DNA of 33,588 nt from Erysipelothrix sp. GTDB taxonomy: Bacteria > Bacillota_I > Bacilli_A > Erysipelotrichales > Erysipelotrichaceae. This document shows, in pieces, positions 5,391 to 22,390 of this stretch. The position numbers and the translations under genes are program-made. Position 1 is the first letter of the stretch. Each line of letters starts with the position of its first letter. The notes under the pieces are model-generated. The model saw only the letters and a list, made by a program, of their open reading frames with translations. It made no database searches and had not been told where the DNA came from. The stretch spans positions 1 to 33,588 of the forward strand of contig JAAZDN010000004.1 of NCBI GenBank assembly GCA_012512805.1, read 5' to 3'.

Positions 5391-6176
5391 ATGGGTGATG
5401 GTATGATGAAAAATACTTTGGGAAGAGATACACTAGTTTATAAAAAAATTAGGATAATTGATGAGCAAGTTGAAATTTTAGTTAATAACAAGAATTTTAT
5501 TAAAGATTCTATAGATGATAACGCAAAAGATTTTTTGCTGAGATATAACTATATAAATGTAATTACTCCGTTTAAGTATAAATATGCAGAACTCAAGATT
5601 ATTAATGATAGACCTCATTACATTAAAATAAAAATAGATAATGTAATGAGGCATGCATATAACAAAGAAGTTGATTTTAAGGAAATTGAAAATCATTTTA
5701 TGATGGAACGAGCATCTTATCAATTCATAGCTTCTGGACTTATTACATTTGAAACAACTTTTAAATCTTTAGTTAATTATTATTTATTCACCGAATATAA
5801 GTGTGATAATGACTTGGAATTAATTTGTACTGTTAGACACTTCATACAATCTGTAAAATTTTTGAATTTGGGATATGAGTTTAATGATAAAAAAACTGAA
5901 GCTAATAAAAGAAGGAAGTCTCATATACGAAGAAGTTTTGATAAGATTATTGCTGAACTTGAAGGAACATCTGATGAATTTCCATTTTGTGGTGGTAATA
6001 AAGTATCTAATATTTTTGTGTACTTTGATAAAATGACTTTAAAAAATATTATTAATATTTTTTATTGCTTTGATAAAGAAATACAACTTATTATTTTTGA
6101 ACATATGAAAAGATATAAACTTAATTTAAATAGTTTGGAAATCTCGGTTTTAAAGATAGATTATTTAACATTGTAA
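5391..6176 (+). CDS. Abortive-infection-like protein (AbiD/AbiF, Abi_2-type)
   Basis: A soluble 261-aa protein resembling the AbiD/AbiF (Abi_2) group of phage-defence proteins. The likeness is in the architecture: an N-terminal QVEILVNNKNF segment, FLLRYNYINVITPFKYKY (families have a 'YYRLsgYwyPf' block here), an acidic DFKEIENHF, then MMERASYQFIASGLITFETTFKSLVNYYL, the helix just before the HEPN core. The usual late motif Arg-Asn-x-x-x-His is not seen; VRHFIQS occupies its place and no RxxxxH occurs anywhere. It may be inactive, use other residues, or belong to a sister family. Three candidate starts (5391, 5403, 5406) exist; GGGTGATGG favours 5403/5406. Codons are far more AT-rich than in neighbouring genes, suggesting transfer beside the tRNA genes. 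Confidence 0.55.
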   Translation: MGDGMMKNTLGRDTLVYKKIRIIDEQVEILVNNKNFIKDSIDDNAKDFLLRYNYINVITPFKYKYAELKIINDRPHYIKIKIDNVMRHAYNKEVDFKEIENHFMMERASYQFIASGLITFETTFKSLVNYYLFTEYKCDNDLELICTVRHFIQSVKFLNLGYEFNDKKTEANKRRKSHIRRSFDKIIAELEGTSDEFPFCGGNKVSNIFVYFDKMTLKNIINIFYCFDKEIQLIIFEHMKRYKLNLNSLEISVLKIDYLTL

Positions 6177-17365: not shown

Positions 17366-19264
17366 ATGCAAAAATTTAAAACGATGTTAGTTGTCACAAT
17401 CTTTACAATACTCGTTAGTCTGTTTAATATGCAACCAATTGAAGCGATTAATAACTTTAATATTGATAGCTTGGCGGTTGATATTGTTGTAAATGAAGAT
17501 GGAACGTATGACATAACAGAAAAATTTGTTATGGACTACTTCATACCAGCCTTAGGCTTTTATCGTAATCTTCCATCTGCATATAAAATGGAATTTATTG
17601 ATAAGGACAAAAATGTACATAATGAAAAATACTACTTTCCAATTACTGATGTAAAACTGGAAGGTGATGTTTACTCCATTGAGAACGAAATTAAGGGTAA
17701 AACAATTGTTGTTGGTCCTGAAGAATATCCAAGAATTACCGGATTAAAGGAATATACGATCTCTTACAAGGTGCATACACAAAAGATTGGTCTAGACTTT
17801 GCTGAAGAATTGTTCTTTCAAAATCTTGTTAGTGATTGGGAAGCTACAATTAAACAATTTAGTGCAAAGGTTACCTTTGTAAAACCTGTTGACCTATCAA
17901 AACTTGAAGTTATTGGAACCATTGATCAAAACGATTTTCCGGTGGACTGCAACATTGAACAGAGTAGTTTCACATGTACTAAAGATGATTCATTTGTTTT
18001 AAATGAAGGAAATGGTATTACAGCAAGATTAGAATTACCAAATGATTACTTTAATCGTCCTGAAATTACAAATCCATTCTTTATTCCTTTTGGTATTATT
18101 GGAGGAATATTGCTTGTTGTTGCACTCTTGGCAAAATTTACCATCGGCGTACATCAACCTGTAATTGAAAAGGTTATGTTTACAGCACCAGATGGATTTA
18201 ACAGTCCAATGATTAAACAAGCATACACAAAATTTGTTACTGTTTCGGATATTCATTCTCTACTCTTTGAATGGGCAGCGAGCGGTACAATCATGATTGA
18301 TGAGCGAGAGGATGATCTTTACTTCACAAAATTGAAAGATTTAGAGTCTCCACGTGCTTCAGAGAACCGATTATTTAAAGCACTTTTTCCAAATTTTGAA
18401 GAAACATCGATCAAAAAGTGGCAAAAAGATGAAATGTATGAGACCTTTGTACAATATTCAACGAACATTTCAAAGGATATTTCATCAATTGTGACCTTTA
18501 ATAAGACAAAAAACTACGTTATTGCATCTCTTTTAGCAGTAATTACAGTAGTAATTATGTTTATTTACAACGCATTAATGATCAATAACTATATGCGAAA
18601 CTTCTCTAGCGCAGCATTACTGAGTCTTCTATACACACTTGTTCCGTTAATTGCCTTCGTCATCTTATTAATTCTTGCATTAAACGCTAAAAAAGAAAAT
18701 AAAATTAGTGTTGAAAAAGTGTTGATAGTGTTGAACTTGATAATAATTCCAAGCATTTTACTTGCAATAAATAAACTGAATATTCTAGGAATTAGAGTAA
18801 ATAACACGGAATACGTTTTTATTTACATGATTTTAACCTTAGTTTTAATGATAGTATACTTTATTCCCCAAAAGACACGTAAGGGTGCAGATATTTATGG
18901 AGAAATTATTGGACTAAGAAATTTCATTAAATATGCTAAAGAAGATGAATTAATTGCCATGCAAAATGAACACCCAAACCTCTATTATGACGTGCTCCCA
19001 TACGCTTTCGCCTTTGGAATCACGACTTTATGGCTCGATCACTTCAAAAATATTAAAATACCGGAATCACCATATTATCGTACATACAACAGTAGCTTTG
19101 GAAACTATTATATGTTCAGTCGTCTTGTATCATCAGTAAATGCATCCAGCCAACAACTTATACCTAAGGTGACAACGAAAACTGGTGGTTCGAGCTTTGG
19201 TGGAGGAATGGGAGGCTTTTCCGGTGGCGGCGGATTCGGCGGCGGAGGCGGCGGTGGACGTTAG
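17366..19264 (+). CDS. DUF2207-family membrane protein with Gly-rich tail
   Basis: Function unknown. A signal peptide (residues 1-27, ending PIEA) leads an extracytoplasmic DUF2207 beta domain (about 28-230; VNEDGTYDITEKF, GFYRNLP). A membrane helix follows at about 235-255, then a cytoplasmic winged-helix-like stretch, about four further helices (385-510), and a cytoplasmic part ending in an almost pure Gly/Phe/Ser tail (SFGGGMGGFSGG...). The tail is typical of this family and gives a sharp local rise in GC. The length of 632 aa is usual. AAGAAGGGAAAA precedes the ATG 15 bases after yhaM, so it may belong to that transcript. A role in the cell envelope is inferred. Confidence 0.8.
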   Translation: MQKFKTMLVVTIFTILVSLFNMQPIEAINNFNIDSLAVDIVVNEDGTYDITEKFVMDYFIPALGFYRNLPSAYKMEFIDKDKNVHNEKYYFPITDVKLEGDVYSIENEIKGKTIVVGPEEYPRITGLKEYTISYKVHTQKIGLDFAEELFFQNLVSDWEATIKQFSAKVTFVKPVDLSKLEVIGTIDQNDFPVDCNIEQSSFTCTKDDSFVLNEGNGITARLELPNDYFNRPEITNPFFIPFGIIGGILLVVALLAKFTIGVHQPVIEKVMFTAPDGFNSPMIKQAYTKFVTVSDIHSLLFEWAASGTIMIDEREDDLYFTKLKDLESPRASENRLFKALFPNFEETSIKKWQKDEMYETFVQYSTNISKDISSIVTFNKTKNYVIASLLAVITVVIMFIYNALMINNYMRNFSSAALLSLLYTLVPLIAFVILLILALNAKKENKISVEKVLIVLNLIIIPSILLAINKLNILGIRVNNTEYVFIYMILTLVLMIVYFIPQKTRKGADIYGEIIGLRNFIKYAKEDELIAMQNEHPNLYYDVLPYAFAFGITTLWLDHFKNIKIPESPYYRTYNSSFGNYYMFSRLVSSVNASSQQLIPKVTTKTGGSSFGGGMGGFSGGGGFGGGGGGGR

Positions 19265-19266
19265 TG

Positions 19267-19294
19267 TTGACGGAATCCAGATGTAACGTATAGT
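19267..19294 (+). promoter_or_regulatory. Distal promoter candidate of the SipW operon
   Basis: TTGACG (19267-19272), 16 bases, TATAGT (19289-19294), just after the DUF2207 stop. Confidence 0.4.
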
Positions 19295-19401: not shown

Positions 19402-19968
19402 ATGAAAACAACTAAAATTTTTAGTGCGGTAACACTTGTATTACTATTACTCGTATTAACTACATTTACATACGCATACTGGGCTGGAGACTTAAATGTC
19501 AATGCAGCATCAGCAAATGGTCAAACACTTACAATCGGATCAGGAGAAAACGTTAAAACTTTAATTGAAGTTACTGACGTAGCAGACACTACTAAGTTAT
19601 TAGTACCTGTTGACCGTGTTGTAAACGAAAACCAAGTATCTTCATACACATATGATTACAAAGTTAACTGGTATGATGCTGATGACGCAACTGTTGGATC
19701 TCTTGAAAAAACAGACTTAATCGTTACTCCAGTATTAACAATTACTAATTCTGGTTTAACGGCTGAGCAAATTTTAGAAATGTTCACTGTTACAGTAAAT
19801 GAAGGAAAAGCTATCCCAATTACATTAAGTGGTGATCAAGTCAACGTAAGCGTCGTTCTAACATTTAAAAATGAACCAGCTTCAAAAGCTATTTACGACA
19901 AAGTTGTAAATGGTAAATTAAATTTAGCGTTAACATTTGCAGTTAACCCTGAAGCACCTACAGAATAA
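19402..19968 (+). CDS. SipW-type exported protein (TasA/CPF_0494-like)
   Basis: A secreted surface or matrix protein of the alternate-signal class processed by SipW-type peptidases. The signal peptide (1-27) ends in the hallmark TYAYW (23-27), followed by AGDLNVNAASANGQTLTIG, the short linker and first strand seen in TasA and CPF_0494-type proteins. The rest is beta-rich with no cysteine and no membrane anchor: an immunoglobulin-like fold would fit. Relatives form fibres or surface layers; that it does so here is inferred. AAGGA precedes the ATG. It is first in a three-gene operon ending in the SipW-type peptidase. TasA itself is longer (261 aa), so this is the shorter type. Confidence 0.8.
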   Translation: MKTTKIFSAVTLVLLLLVLTTFTYAYWAGDLNVNAASANGQTLTIGSGENVKTLIEVTDVADTTKLLVPVDRVVNENQVSSYTYDYKVNWYDADDATVGSLEKTDLIVTPVLTITNSGLTAEQILEMFTVTVNEGKAIPITLSGDQVNVSVVLTFKNEPASKAIYDKVVNGKLNLALTFAVNPEAPTE

Positions 19969-19980
19969 TAGGTAAATTTT

Positions 19981-20829
19981 ATGAAAAGAAGAAGATACTT
20001 ATATCTTCTTTTTTCGCTAATATTGATAGTCTCTAATTTTGAGAGTTTAGAATCTTATTGGTACGAATTAAGTACTTCATTTTCAACACAAAGTGATGCA
20101 AGTATTAATATCGGACAATGGATGTGGAATCAAGGAGGGGCTTCAAGTTATGTTAAAAAAGAAGATCTCTCTACAGTTAATAACGCTCATTGGCTAGCAC
20201 TTATTAATGGAGAACCTTTGAATAAATTTGATATTGTTGTTATGCAAGGTAGTCTTGGTAATTTCTATAAATACAATGTTCAAGAATTCCCATGGATTTG
20301 TAACCCTGAAGGTGCGGATAATATCTGTCGAGATCCAGATACATATGATATGTCAATAAGTGGATATCGACCATTAGATTTTGATTTAAAAAATTTATCT
20401 CCATATTATATTGGTGATATTGTAATTGTTGATGGAATTGTATACACTCCAAATTATGAAACGCACGGTCGTGCAGGTAGTCCTAAATATAATTTTGGAG
20501 AATATAGTCCATGGAGGACGGTACGTCATCTTGATGAACAAAATGCAATTGCTGGTGAGCTTGTATATACAACAGTTAATAATCAAATTGAAGTTTATCG
20601 AGCAGAAAGTAACAATAATGATAGAAGTCCTATAGATTCAAATAACAGAAATTGGACAAGATTGAATATTGACTTTAGAGTTGGTAATACATATAAATAT
20701 GGAGATGTAACCAAATATAATGGAGACTTTTATATATATATGGGTAATGGTAAAGTTAGAAATTCGTTTGACCCATGTGATTGGCGCTATGGGAATAGTA
20801 CAAAAAATAAAAAATTAGACGGTTGTTAA
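19981..20829 (+). CDS. Exported protein with about four CBM5/12-like modules
   Basis: I know of no named family for the whole protein. Residues 1-26 are a signal peptide (MKRRRY then a hydrophobic run), and ESYWYELSTSFSTQSDASINIGQW resembles the SipW-type junction, so it is probably a second SipW substrate. The mature part has four segments of the form [D/G]-[IEV]-V-x-x-(x)-N/G-x-[IF]-Y: near 83 (FDIVVMQG), 145 (GDIVIVDGIVYTP), 192 (GELVYTTVNNQIEVYRA) and 241 (GDVTKYNGDFYIY). At least three are followed by Pro and a Trp (SPWRTV, NWTRL, DPCDW). This is the pattern of chitin-binding CBM5/12 domains. Two cysteine pairs (107/116, 266/282) could form disulfides. It lies 12 bases after the TasA-like gene. 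Binding to a polysaccharide or capsule is inferred. Confidence 0.7.
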   Translation: MKRRRYLYLLFSLILIVSNFESLESYWYELSTSFSTQSDASINIGQWMWNQGGASSYVKKEDLSTVNNAHWLALINGEPLNKFDIVVMQGSLGNFYKYNVQEFPWICNPEGADNICRDPDTYDMSISGYRPLDFDLKNLSPYYIGDIVIVDGIVYTPNYETHGRAGSPKYNFGEYSPWRTVRHLDEQNAIAGELVYTTVNNQIEVYRAESNNNDRSPIDSNNRNWTRLNIDFRVGNTYKYGDVTKYNGDFYIYMGNGKVRNSFDPCDWRYGNSTKNKKLDGC

Positions 20830-20830
20830 A

Positions 20831-21346
20831 ATGAAGAAGCACAAATTAACACTTTATGATTTTGTTGTTTATATTGCTTTATTTCTAGTTATTGCTTATA
20901 TATATTTTCAATTGATAGCTCCTTCTAACTTTGATGAAATGCGACAAGCACAATATTTTGTCGTAGTTACTGATAGTATGGAGCCGACAATACCTGTTAA
21001 TTCGCTTATAAGAGTGAATAAGTCAGATCGTGACTTTGAGGTCGACGATATTGTTTCGGTCTTCATTGACGTTAATAATGATGAAGCACGAGAAATCGTA
21101 ACTCACCGTATTGCGTCTATTCATGAGGAATCAGGAACACTTCGTACCATGTCTGATCACTTTCGTGAAATTGATCGATGGGTTGTTAAAAAAACGGATG
21201 TTATTGGTAAGGTAGAATTAATTATTCCACATGTTGGATGGTTAGCGATGTTTCTTCAAAGAAACGTTATTGTCTTCATTATCTTAGCGATCATTAGTGT
21301 AATGATATACTTATACATTTTAATTAATAATTGGCATAAACAATAA
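20831..21346 (+). CDS. sipW: ER/archaeal-type signal peptidase I (SipW-like)
   Basis: A membrane protease that removes signal peptides from the special class of exported proteins encoded just upstream. Helix 1 spans about residues 8-28 and helix 2 about 146-166. Catalytic Ser49 lies in VVVTDSMEPTI. The second catalytic residue is His92 in VTHRI, not Lys, which places it in the ER/SipW class, and Asp109 (MSDH) is the candidate third residue. The 171-aa length is usual. No clear ribosome site precedes the ATG, which starts one base after the upstream stop; translation is probably coupled. A strong terminator ends the operon. Confidence 0.92.
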   Translation: MKKHKLTLYDFVVYIALFLVIAYIYFQLIAPSNFDEMRQAQYFVVVTDSMEPTIPVNSLIRVNKSDRDFEVDDIVSVFIDVNNDEAREIVTHRIASIHEESGTLRTMSDHFREIDRWVVKKTDVIGKVELIIPHVGWLAMFLQRNVIVFIILAIISVMIYLYILINNWHKQ

Positions 21347-21350
21347 ATGA

Positions 21351-21386
21351 AGTAACAGTTAGAAGCAATTCAACTGTTACTTTTTA
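21351..21386 (+). terminator. Terminator of the SipW operon
   Basis: AGTAACAGTT (21351-21360), 11-base loop, AACTGTTACT (21372-21381), then TTTT. Perfect 10-bp stem. Confidence 0.88.
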
Positions 21387-21395
21387 AACAACTTA

Positions 21396-21424
21396 TTGAC
21401 TGAATGTTTAATTGTCGTTATAAT
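21396..21424 (+). promoter_or_regulatory. Promoter of the choline-kinase-like gene
   Basis: TTGACT (21396-21401), 17 bases, TATAAT (21419-21424). Confidence 0.8.
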
Positions 21425-21445: not shown

Positions 21446-22390
21446 ATGAATACATACAAAACAATAACAAGCTTGAAAAATAGCGATGAAAGATATAATT
21501 TTGTTGATGAGAATATTGTAATGGATAATATACAAAAACTCTTTCCAACTCAGGAAGCAGTAAAATTTCAAGTAATAGAAGATGGATATACAAATTTAGT
21601 TTTTAATTTTACAGTTGAAGGACTACGCTATGTGTATCGTTATCCTGGTGTGGATACTGAATATATTAATCGTGAAACAGAATATAATGCAAATAAAATT
21701 GCAAGTGAATTGGGTTTAGATGCGACACTATTATGGAGCGATAAATCAGGTCATAAGATTATGAAATATATCGTAAACTTTAGATACCTTGAATACAGCA
21801 TAAAAACTGATGTTGAATTGATTATTGAAACATTTTTAAAACTACATAATTCTGAACAGTTATCAGGGCAGGTGTATGATATTATTGGTGACATCAATAC
21901 GTTCTATGTTGATAATTTTGAATACAATGCATCTATTTTCCCTAATATGAGTAAACTCTTTGAACGGGTAAAAACAATATATAAAGAATTTAATTATGAA
22001 GATCGTAAACATGTATTATGTCATAATGATATTTATCGTACAAACGTACTCATTACCCTTGATCGTTACTATATTATTGATTGGGAATATGCTAAAGATG
22101 GTGATCCTTCCTTCGATCTAGCGACATTTATTATTTGTTCGGACTACTCTGATTATGAGGTAAGTCGACTACTTAAAATGTATCTTAAGGATGATTATAC
22201 ACAGGAGTTGGCATATGCGTATTACCAAGGGTTCGCAATTGCGAGTTTCTACTGGCTTTTATGGGCACTACATGTTGAGAAAAATGGTGGAGACACTGAA
22301 GGTTTCGTCGACAAGTATTATGGTTATTTATTACGTTTTTTAAAAATCATTACGAAACAAGCAAAAGCCTTAAACAATCCACAAAAATAA
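21446..22390 (+). CDS. licA: Choline/ethanolamine kinase-family protein (LicA-like)
   Basis: A cytoplasmic APH-fold small-molecule kinase. The choline kinase branch makes phosphocholine for decoration of surface polymers. Nucleotide-binding strands (DGYTNLVFNFTVEGLRYVYRYPG) resemble LicA. The catalytic block is HNDIYRTNVL (Asp base and Asn), and the Mg2+ motif IDWEYAKDGDPSFDLATF follows. The aromatic-rich C-terminus (YYQGFAIASFYWLLWALH) could form the choline cage. 314 aa fits. Erysipelothrix capsule is known to carry phosphorylcholine, which suits the call, but licB, licC and licD are not next to it, so another alcohol substrate remains possible. Confidence 0.78.
   Translation: MNTYKTITSLKNSDERYNFVDENIVMDNIQKLFPTQEAVKFQVIEDGYTNLVFNFTVEGLRYVYRYPGVDTEYINRETEYNANKIASELGLDATLLWSDKSGHKIMKYIVNFRYLEYSIKTDVELIIETFLKLHNSEQLSGQVYDIIGDINTFYVDNFEYNASIFPNMSKLFERVKTIYKEFNYEDRKHVLCHNDIYRTNVLITLDRYYIIDWEYAKDGDPSFDLATFIICSDYSDYEVSRLLKMYLKDDYTQELAYAYYQGFAIASFYWLLWALHVEKNGGDTEGFVDKYYGYLLRFLKIITKQAKALNNPQK

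Follow-up and report, generated by a model that had tools for sequence, protein, structure and literature searches.

In Bacillus subtilis, TasA subunits are joined by an N-terminal donor strand, and TapA, whose N-terminus resembles that strand, probably starts the fibre (PMC9674648). An aromatic residue at P2′ contributes to the poor cleavage of TasA by ordinary signal peptidase (PMC10269814). B. cereus has no TapA; there, CapP, which SipW processes and whose C-domain is repetitive, controls assembly (PMC13082335). The BsaA filaments of Clostridium perfringens are the product of a sipW operon and need no sortase (PMC7395162). Searches of the open (non-subscription) literature on SipW together with carbohydrate-binding modules, or on SipW in the lineages considered here, turned up no such pairing. 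CBM5/12 modules, a type known to bind polysaccharide, are usually found on secreted glycoside hydrolases.

Here we describe a three-gene cassette from an Erysipelothrix sp. that we rate as a variant of the TasA/SipW system, conserved and seemingly not yet described, and not as a new category. The window, meaning the whole 33,588-nucleotide stretch of DNA that was analysed, is an entire contig (C19) of a 1.17 Mb draft genome that is 94.9% complete and 6.6% contaminated. The cassette and its surroundings comprise the following features.

17366–19264, + strand: DUF2207 membrane protein, left flank; native chromosomal neighbour, outside the cassette
19267–19294, + strand: promoter-like site TTGACG-16-TATAGT, 5′ of the operon; weak, proposed solely from its position
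19402–19968, + strand: ORF1, presumed major fibre subunit, 188 aa; SipW-type signal TYA/YW (slash, presumed cut), beta-rich body
19981–20829, + strand: ORF2, 282 aa; SipW-type export end LES/YW, then divergent CBM5/12-like modules
20831–21346, + strand: ORF3, SipW/ER-type signal peptidase I, 171 aa; Ser49, His92, Asp115
21350–21385, + strand: intrinsic terminator; 11-bp stem, 11-nt loop, T run
21446–22390, + strand: APH/choline-kinase-like protein, right flank, outside the cassette; adjoins DUF2207 in the same-genus genome G001

The initial annotation had described three adjacent, tightly spaced genes with a common terminator, and this architecture is confirmed at exact coordinates. All three genes are read from the + strand; 12 bp separate ORF1 from ORF2, and 1 bp separates ORF2 from ORF3. 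A perfect 11-bp inverted repeat at ~21350–21381, followed by T's, stands 3′ of ORF3; the terminator folds at −15.4 kcal/mol (z = −5.2), and none of 200 shuffles was equally stable (0/200). A consensus scanner overlooked it because its loop measures 11 nt. Besides the promoter-like site upstream of the operon, a second one with an 11/12 match (21396–21424) precedes the gene 3′ of the operon. Such sites occur 11 times, against 12.2 expected by chance from shuffles, so both are merely suggestive.

From its sequence, we claim ORF3 as an ER-type peptidase that would work like SipW, not as the Bacillus SipW equivalog. It scores 48.3 bits against TIGR02228 (signal peptidase I), just under the cut-off of 51.85, and 47.9 bits against NF046067 (Bacillus SipW equivalog), far under the cut-off of 190. 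L140, a relative from the window's own family (genus g73), has a SipW that passes TIGR02228 at 62.4 bits. Ser49 and His92, the residues named in the initial annotation, both fall in catalytic alignment columns; in an alignment with SipW-like proteins of relatives each is kept in 90% or more of the rows, and no row lacks Asp115. In a phylogeny of 43 SipW sequences, ORF3 clusters, on a long branch, with its counterparts from the three-gene cassettes of genus g73 (support 86/82). Within its own genome, the ORF3 query matched ORF3 itself and nothing else.

A separate observation concerns SipW proteins in a subgroup of family f11, where the copy beside an eight-module CBM protein has its catalytic Ser replaced by Thr or Gln and its His by Tyr or Ala (L131:7337-7912, L146:5281-5847, L149:8885-9469 and L154:4959-5669). 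A second SipW gene with an intact Ser motif lies nearby at the same loci. Retained next to the fibre genes, such a catalytically dead SipW may serve in assembly or anchoring.

Both exported proteins carry the SipW-type signal regions noticed earlier, TYAYW in ORF1 and ESYWYEL in ORF2. With the presumed cut after Ala25 of ORF1, Trp27 becomes P2′, and this residue is invariant in a 20-member family alignment (A1). The presumed cut of ORF2 follows Ser25 and precedes Tyr-Trp27, and again Trp27 is invariant in the alignment with relatives; the cleavage region itself, FESLES/YW, contains two Glu, unlike that of most relatives. A profile of this N-terminal region, built solely from the middle proteins of other genomes (those in the slot of ORF2) and run on window ORFs of at least 60 aa, picked only ORF1 (E 1.5e-7) and ORF2 (E 0.0025), with the next window ORF at E 1.6. 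Judging from Trp27 at the presumed P2′, ORF1 and ORF2 are putative aromatic-P2′ substrates of ORF3.

We rate ORF1 as a member of a putative new subunit family absent from Pfam and NCBIfam. A whole-genome search found homologues in 38 of 395 class genomes, its own included, many of them full-length and up to ~40% identical. As a single query, ORF1 had no match outside its own genome in GTDB genome_contigs, IMG/VR or plasmids, and in a search of 60 relatives its matches were no more than marginal. No Pfam or NCBIfam model matched it, including TIGR04088, TIGR04090, NF046066 (TasA) and the Pfam camelysin model, and no model in either collection covers the body of the 20-member family. Against TIGR04088, TIGR04090 and TasA, the models named in the initial annotation, ORF2 was likewise unmatched. 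Five of the 20 family members gave weak TIGR04088 matches in the signal region, and one TIGR04090 match was seen (E 0.07). SipW-linked proteins in another family of the order mostly match TIGR04088, with TIGR04090/BsaA matches below cut-off, and the ORF1 family aligns with this group (hhalign P 4.5e-6) over the N-terminal ~46 residues only, that is, over the signal and first strand.

The AlphaFold2 model of ORF1 has a beta-rich body with a mean pLDDT of 75.1, mostly 82–94 from residue 61 onward, and pLDDT below 50 at residues 21–29 and 35–49, the expected donor-strand site. Compared with the PDB, the model placed the TasA fibre 8aur at rank 3 (E 4.3e-3, TM 0.43/0.36, probability 1.00), and integrin alpha chains matched alike; the predicted fold is thus consistent with TasA, short of proof. 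Sequence searches of the PDB with alignments A1, A3 and A5 returned nothing useful. The earlier label "TasA-like" therefore holds for the export signal and gene context and, weakly, for the fold, but not for sequence across the protein body.

With the genome's own ribosomal-protein cluster (L195) as codon-usage reference, the top CAI in the window belongs to ORF1 (0.729; the runner-up reaches 0.693), and no other window gene shares its positive log-odds (+0.108) towards ribosomal-protein codons. ORF2 has a log-odds of −0.060 and a CAI of 0.684, above most window genes, and ORF3 a log-odds of −0.056 and a CAI of 0.591. In this one genome, the codon bias fits a bulk subunit (ORF1) with two lower-copy partners.

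The carbohydrate-binding-like protein originally proposed for the accessory slot is borne out by profiles from relatives. A CBM5/12 module profile made from their middle proteins, with the window left out, matched ORF2 at E 4.4e-6 over residues 137–163, 195–232 and 229–262 (next window ORF, E 0.5), and a profile of six g73 middle proteins over their full length matched it at E 1.6e-5 (next unrelated window ORF, 0.27). Against Pfam CBM_5_12 (PF02839), ORF2 itself reaches E 0.014 and 15.9 bits, under the gathering cut-off of 26.2. Among the relatives' middle proteins the E-value falls as low as 1.4e-25, over five scored stretches, and several pass PF02839. No CBM_5_12 was found elsewhere in the window's genome with this model, which misses ORF2 too. 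A single-query search with ORF2 gave no match in GTDB genome_contigs, IMG/VR, plasmids or phages, and its predicted structure, at a pLDDT of 43.6, is too poor to show a fold. Sugar binding by ORF2, and its ligand, are putative.

No Pfam or NCBIfam TapA model and no PDB sequence matched ORF2. That TapA is missing, as first noted, is correct yet not unusual, since B. cereus also lacks it (PMC13082335).

The cassette is conserved in order well beyond the window. An ORF1-family gene, a CBM5/12 protein with a SipW-type signal and SipW follow one another in 18 other genomes from families f1, f9, f11, f14 and f22, as would be expected of a conserved operon of the kind first proposed, though a same-genus genome is without the cassette. 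The three genes are directly adjacent in 15 class genomes (L129, L131, L133, L136, L139-L142, L145, L146, L148-L150, L154 and L167) and in three further genomes of genus g73 (L186, L187 and L188). Within g73, which belongs to the window's own family, L140, L186, L187 and L188 have exactly three genes, some overlapping. At five loci (L157, L161, L185, L189 and L190) the ORF1-CBM pair has no adjacent SipW or meets a contig end. Few of the 273 genomes in the window's own family carry the cassette: besides the window it occurs in six from g73 and on one contig that is doubtful. The 3.5-kb contig of G576 groups with family f11 in the SipW tree and may be misbinned. We discounted family-level ORF1 profile matches in G474, G656 and G577, which cover the N-terminus only and belong to a ~357-aa protein of another kind.

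The same-genus genome G001 (L091) has a syntenic locus, gene for gene, from which the three cassette genes are absent. The shared order runs from the end of a pyruvate oxidoreductase through glycolipid synthase, RecX, a YhaM-like protein, DUF2207, the kinase and ComEA to ComEC, with the kinase ~200 bases after DUF2207 in G001. The cassette was therefore gained or lost within the genus. In G002, a 66% complete genome, DUF2207 was not found. Two other explanations for the locus were dropped: misbinning of the window contig, because the flanks are syntenic with G001 and hence native, and a mobile-element or phage origin, given the native flanks, a GC content like theirs and no phage or plasmid match.

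The middle slot varies in content. CBM5/12 is by far its commonest domain, with one module in f9, f14 and f22, ~3–4 in g73 and 8–12 in f11. Several relatives have no CBM there, L135 carrying RCC1-like repeats, L160 other repeats and L155 unassigned ~300-aa proteins; sugar binding is hence not a fixed function of this slot. By eye, the heads fused to a SipW-type N-terminus include RCC1-like repeats, GLUG-like repeats and unassigned proteins, and examples lie at L135:7030-8535, L160:4458-5717, L131:736-1920 and L155:5692-6582. Many clusters, including L129, L133, L136, L139, L141, L145 and L148, have an extra ~195-aa paralogous SipW substrate 5′ of the ORF1-family gene, and in the same clusters (L129, L133 and others) a membrane protein lies between two SipW genes. 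Going by gene content, the window cassette is a putative reduced version of these larger clusters.

Set beside tapA-sipW-tasA of B. subtilis, the window likewise pairs a dedicated SipW-type peptidase with a beta-rich exported subunit (presumably abundant) that has an aromatic P2′; its accessory exported protein is similar to the subunit at the N-terminus. This resemblance between the N-termini of ORF2 and ORF1 parallels that of the TapA N-terminus to the TasA donor strand. In contrast to B. subtilis, the ORF1 body cannot be aligned to TasA by sequence, the order is subunit, accessory, peptidase, and the accessory protein bears CBM5/12 modules and is not TapA. The sipW-tasA/calY/capP system of B. 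cereus shares with the window the lack of TapA and an accessory protein (in the window, a putative SipW substrate) with a repetitive C-terminal part; in B. cereus this protein, CapP, is SipW-processed and governs fibre assembly. It differs in that capP is separately transcribed, the paper being silent on carbohydrate binding by CapP (PMC13082335), and ORF1 is not recognised as a member of the TasA/CalY family.

Like sipW-bsaA of C. perfringens, whose main substrate forms sortase-free extracellular filaments, the locus is a SipW operon with further putative secreted proteins, in which ORF1 would be the filament former. ORF1 has no TIGR04090 match, and the two-component system of the described operon is absent here. 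With CBM5/12 proteins (PF02839) the locus shares the pattern Y..GD.V.YNG..Y; most CBM middle proteins of relatives score at or near the Pfam cut-off, and some have several modules. Here, unlike in typical CBM5/12 proteins, there is no catalytic domain, and the modules stand behind a SipW-type fibre-subunit N-terminus.

With moderate confidence, we read the cassette as a small operon that secretes and assembles an adhesive fibre of the surface or matrix, with ORF2 as its glycan-gripping partner. By analogy with the TasA system, ORF3 would cut the signal peptide off each of ORF1 and ORF2 right before the Tyr-Trp pair. ORF1, made in bulk, would then polymerise in the manner of TasA, each subunit donating its N-terminal strand to the one that follows. 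ORF2 would present the same kind of strand, with CBM5/12-type modules in place of a fibre body, and would for this reason dock at the start or end of the fibre, in low copy, where TapA sits in B. subtilis. There it could grip a polysaccharide, either a chitin- or cellulose-like glycan, a matrix glycan or a wall glycan, and so tether the fibres; wall glycan is a possible ligand because the organism has penicillin-binding proteins. The original suggestion of a fibre plus a polysaccharide-linking protein thus stands in its SipW-linked secretion operon, presumed fibre subunit and carbohydrate-binding-like accessory protein, but its possible tie to a capsule has no support, as the window genes scanned include no cluster for a capsule or for polysaccharide export, and the glycosyltransferase nearby gives a match to a glycolipid synthase.

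A broader reading, which we hold tentatively and at slightly less than an even chance, is that ORF1 represents an unnamed fibre-subunit family, spread over at least five Bacilli families, with interchangeable heads (CBM5/12 arrays, sometimes RCC1 or others) that dock through a shared, SipW-exposed donor strand. The result would be a modular Gram-positive adhesion fibre with a glycan-binding subunit in the place of TapA.

SipW clusters often hold several unrelated substrates, and ORF1 and ORF2 might share the peptidase for export only, ORF1 as an abundant non-fibre surface or coat protein and ORF2 as a free or membrane-retained lectin-like adhesin, with no joint fibre. In favour of this, sequence does not identify the ORF1 body as TasA, and the fold match of ORF1 is weak. 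We nevertheless find it unlikely: ORF1-family and middle genes are adjacent and in the same order in five families, and the middle proteins share the N-terminal strand region of ORF1, beyond the hydrophobic signal. It seems decidedly unlikely that ORF2 is chiefly an assembly starter or chaperone, equivalent to TapA or CapP, whose repeats anchor it to the wall or surface and are not lectin-like, since CBM5/12, a polysaccharide-binding type, is by far the commonest middle domain, at 1 to ~12 modules. TapA and CapP do fill the accessory role in Bacillus, however, and CapP combines a wall-anchoring C-domain with an N-domain that drives assembly (PMC13082335). The RCC1 or other repeats of L135 and L160 also oppose a fixed sugar-binding role, and the window organism is walled, with three PBP transpeptidase matches.

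An antimicrobial or inter-bacterial function, as once proposed for TasA, is highly improbable. A passage in PMC9674648 has TasA first described with antimicrobial activity, but the cassette has no accompanying immunity-like gene, its modules indicate glycan binding, and it gave no PADLOC match and no informative PHROGs match.

If the fibre reading is right, SipW-released matrix fibres and CBM5/12 polysaccharide binders are joined in one short gene set well beyond Bacillus, and little-studied relatives in the Erysipelotrichia/Mollicutes (a placement that is itself inferred) gain a sortase-free hold on polysaccharides. It would also become testable whether the N-terminus of a non-fibre protein docks into a TasA-type fibre. 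Interchangeable heads would suggest a natural route to display different binders on such fibres.

The surroundings of the cassette offer three further observations. The ORF at 5391–6176 encodes 261 aa and has no Pfam match at E 1e-5. The APH/choline-kinase-like protein at 21446–22390 matches PF01636 and PF01633, with all NCBIfam matches far under cut-off, and, going by these matches, might modify a surface polymer. The DUF2207 protein at 17366–19264 ends in a long Gly-rich tail and is kept in G001.
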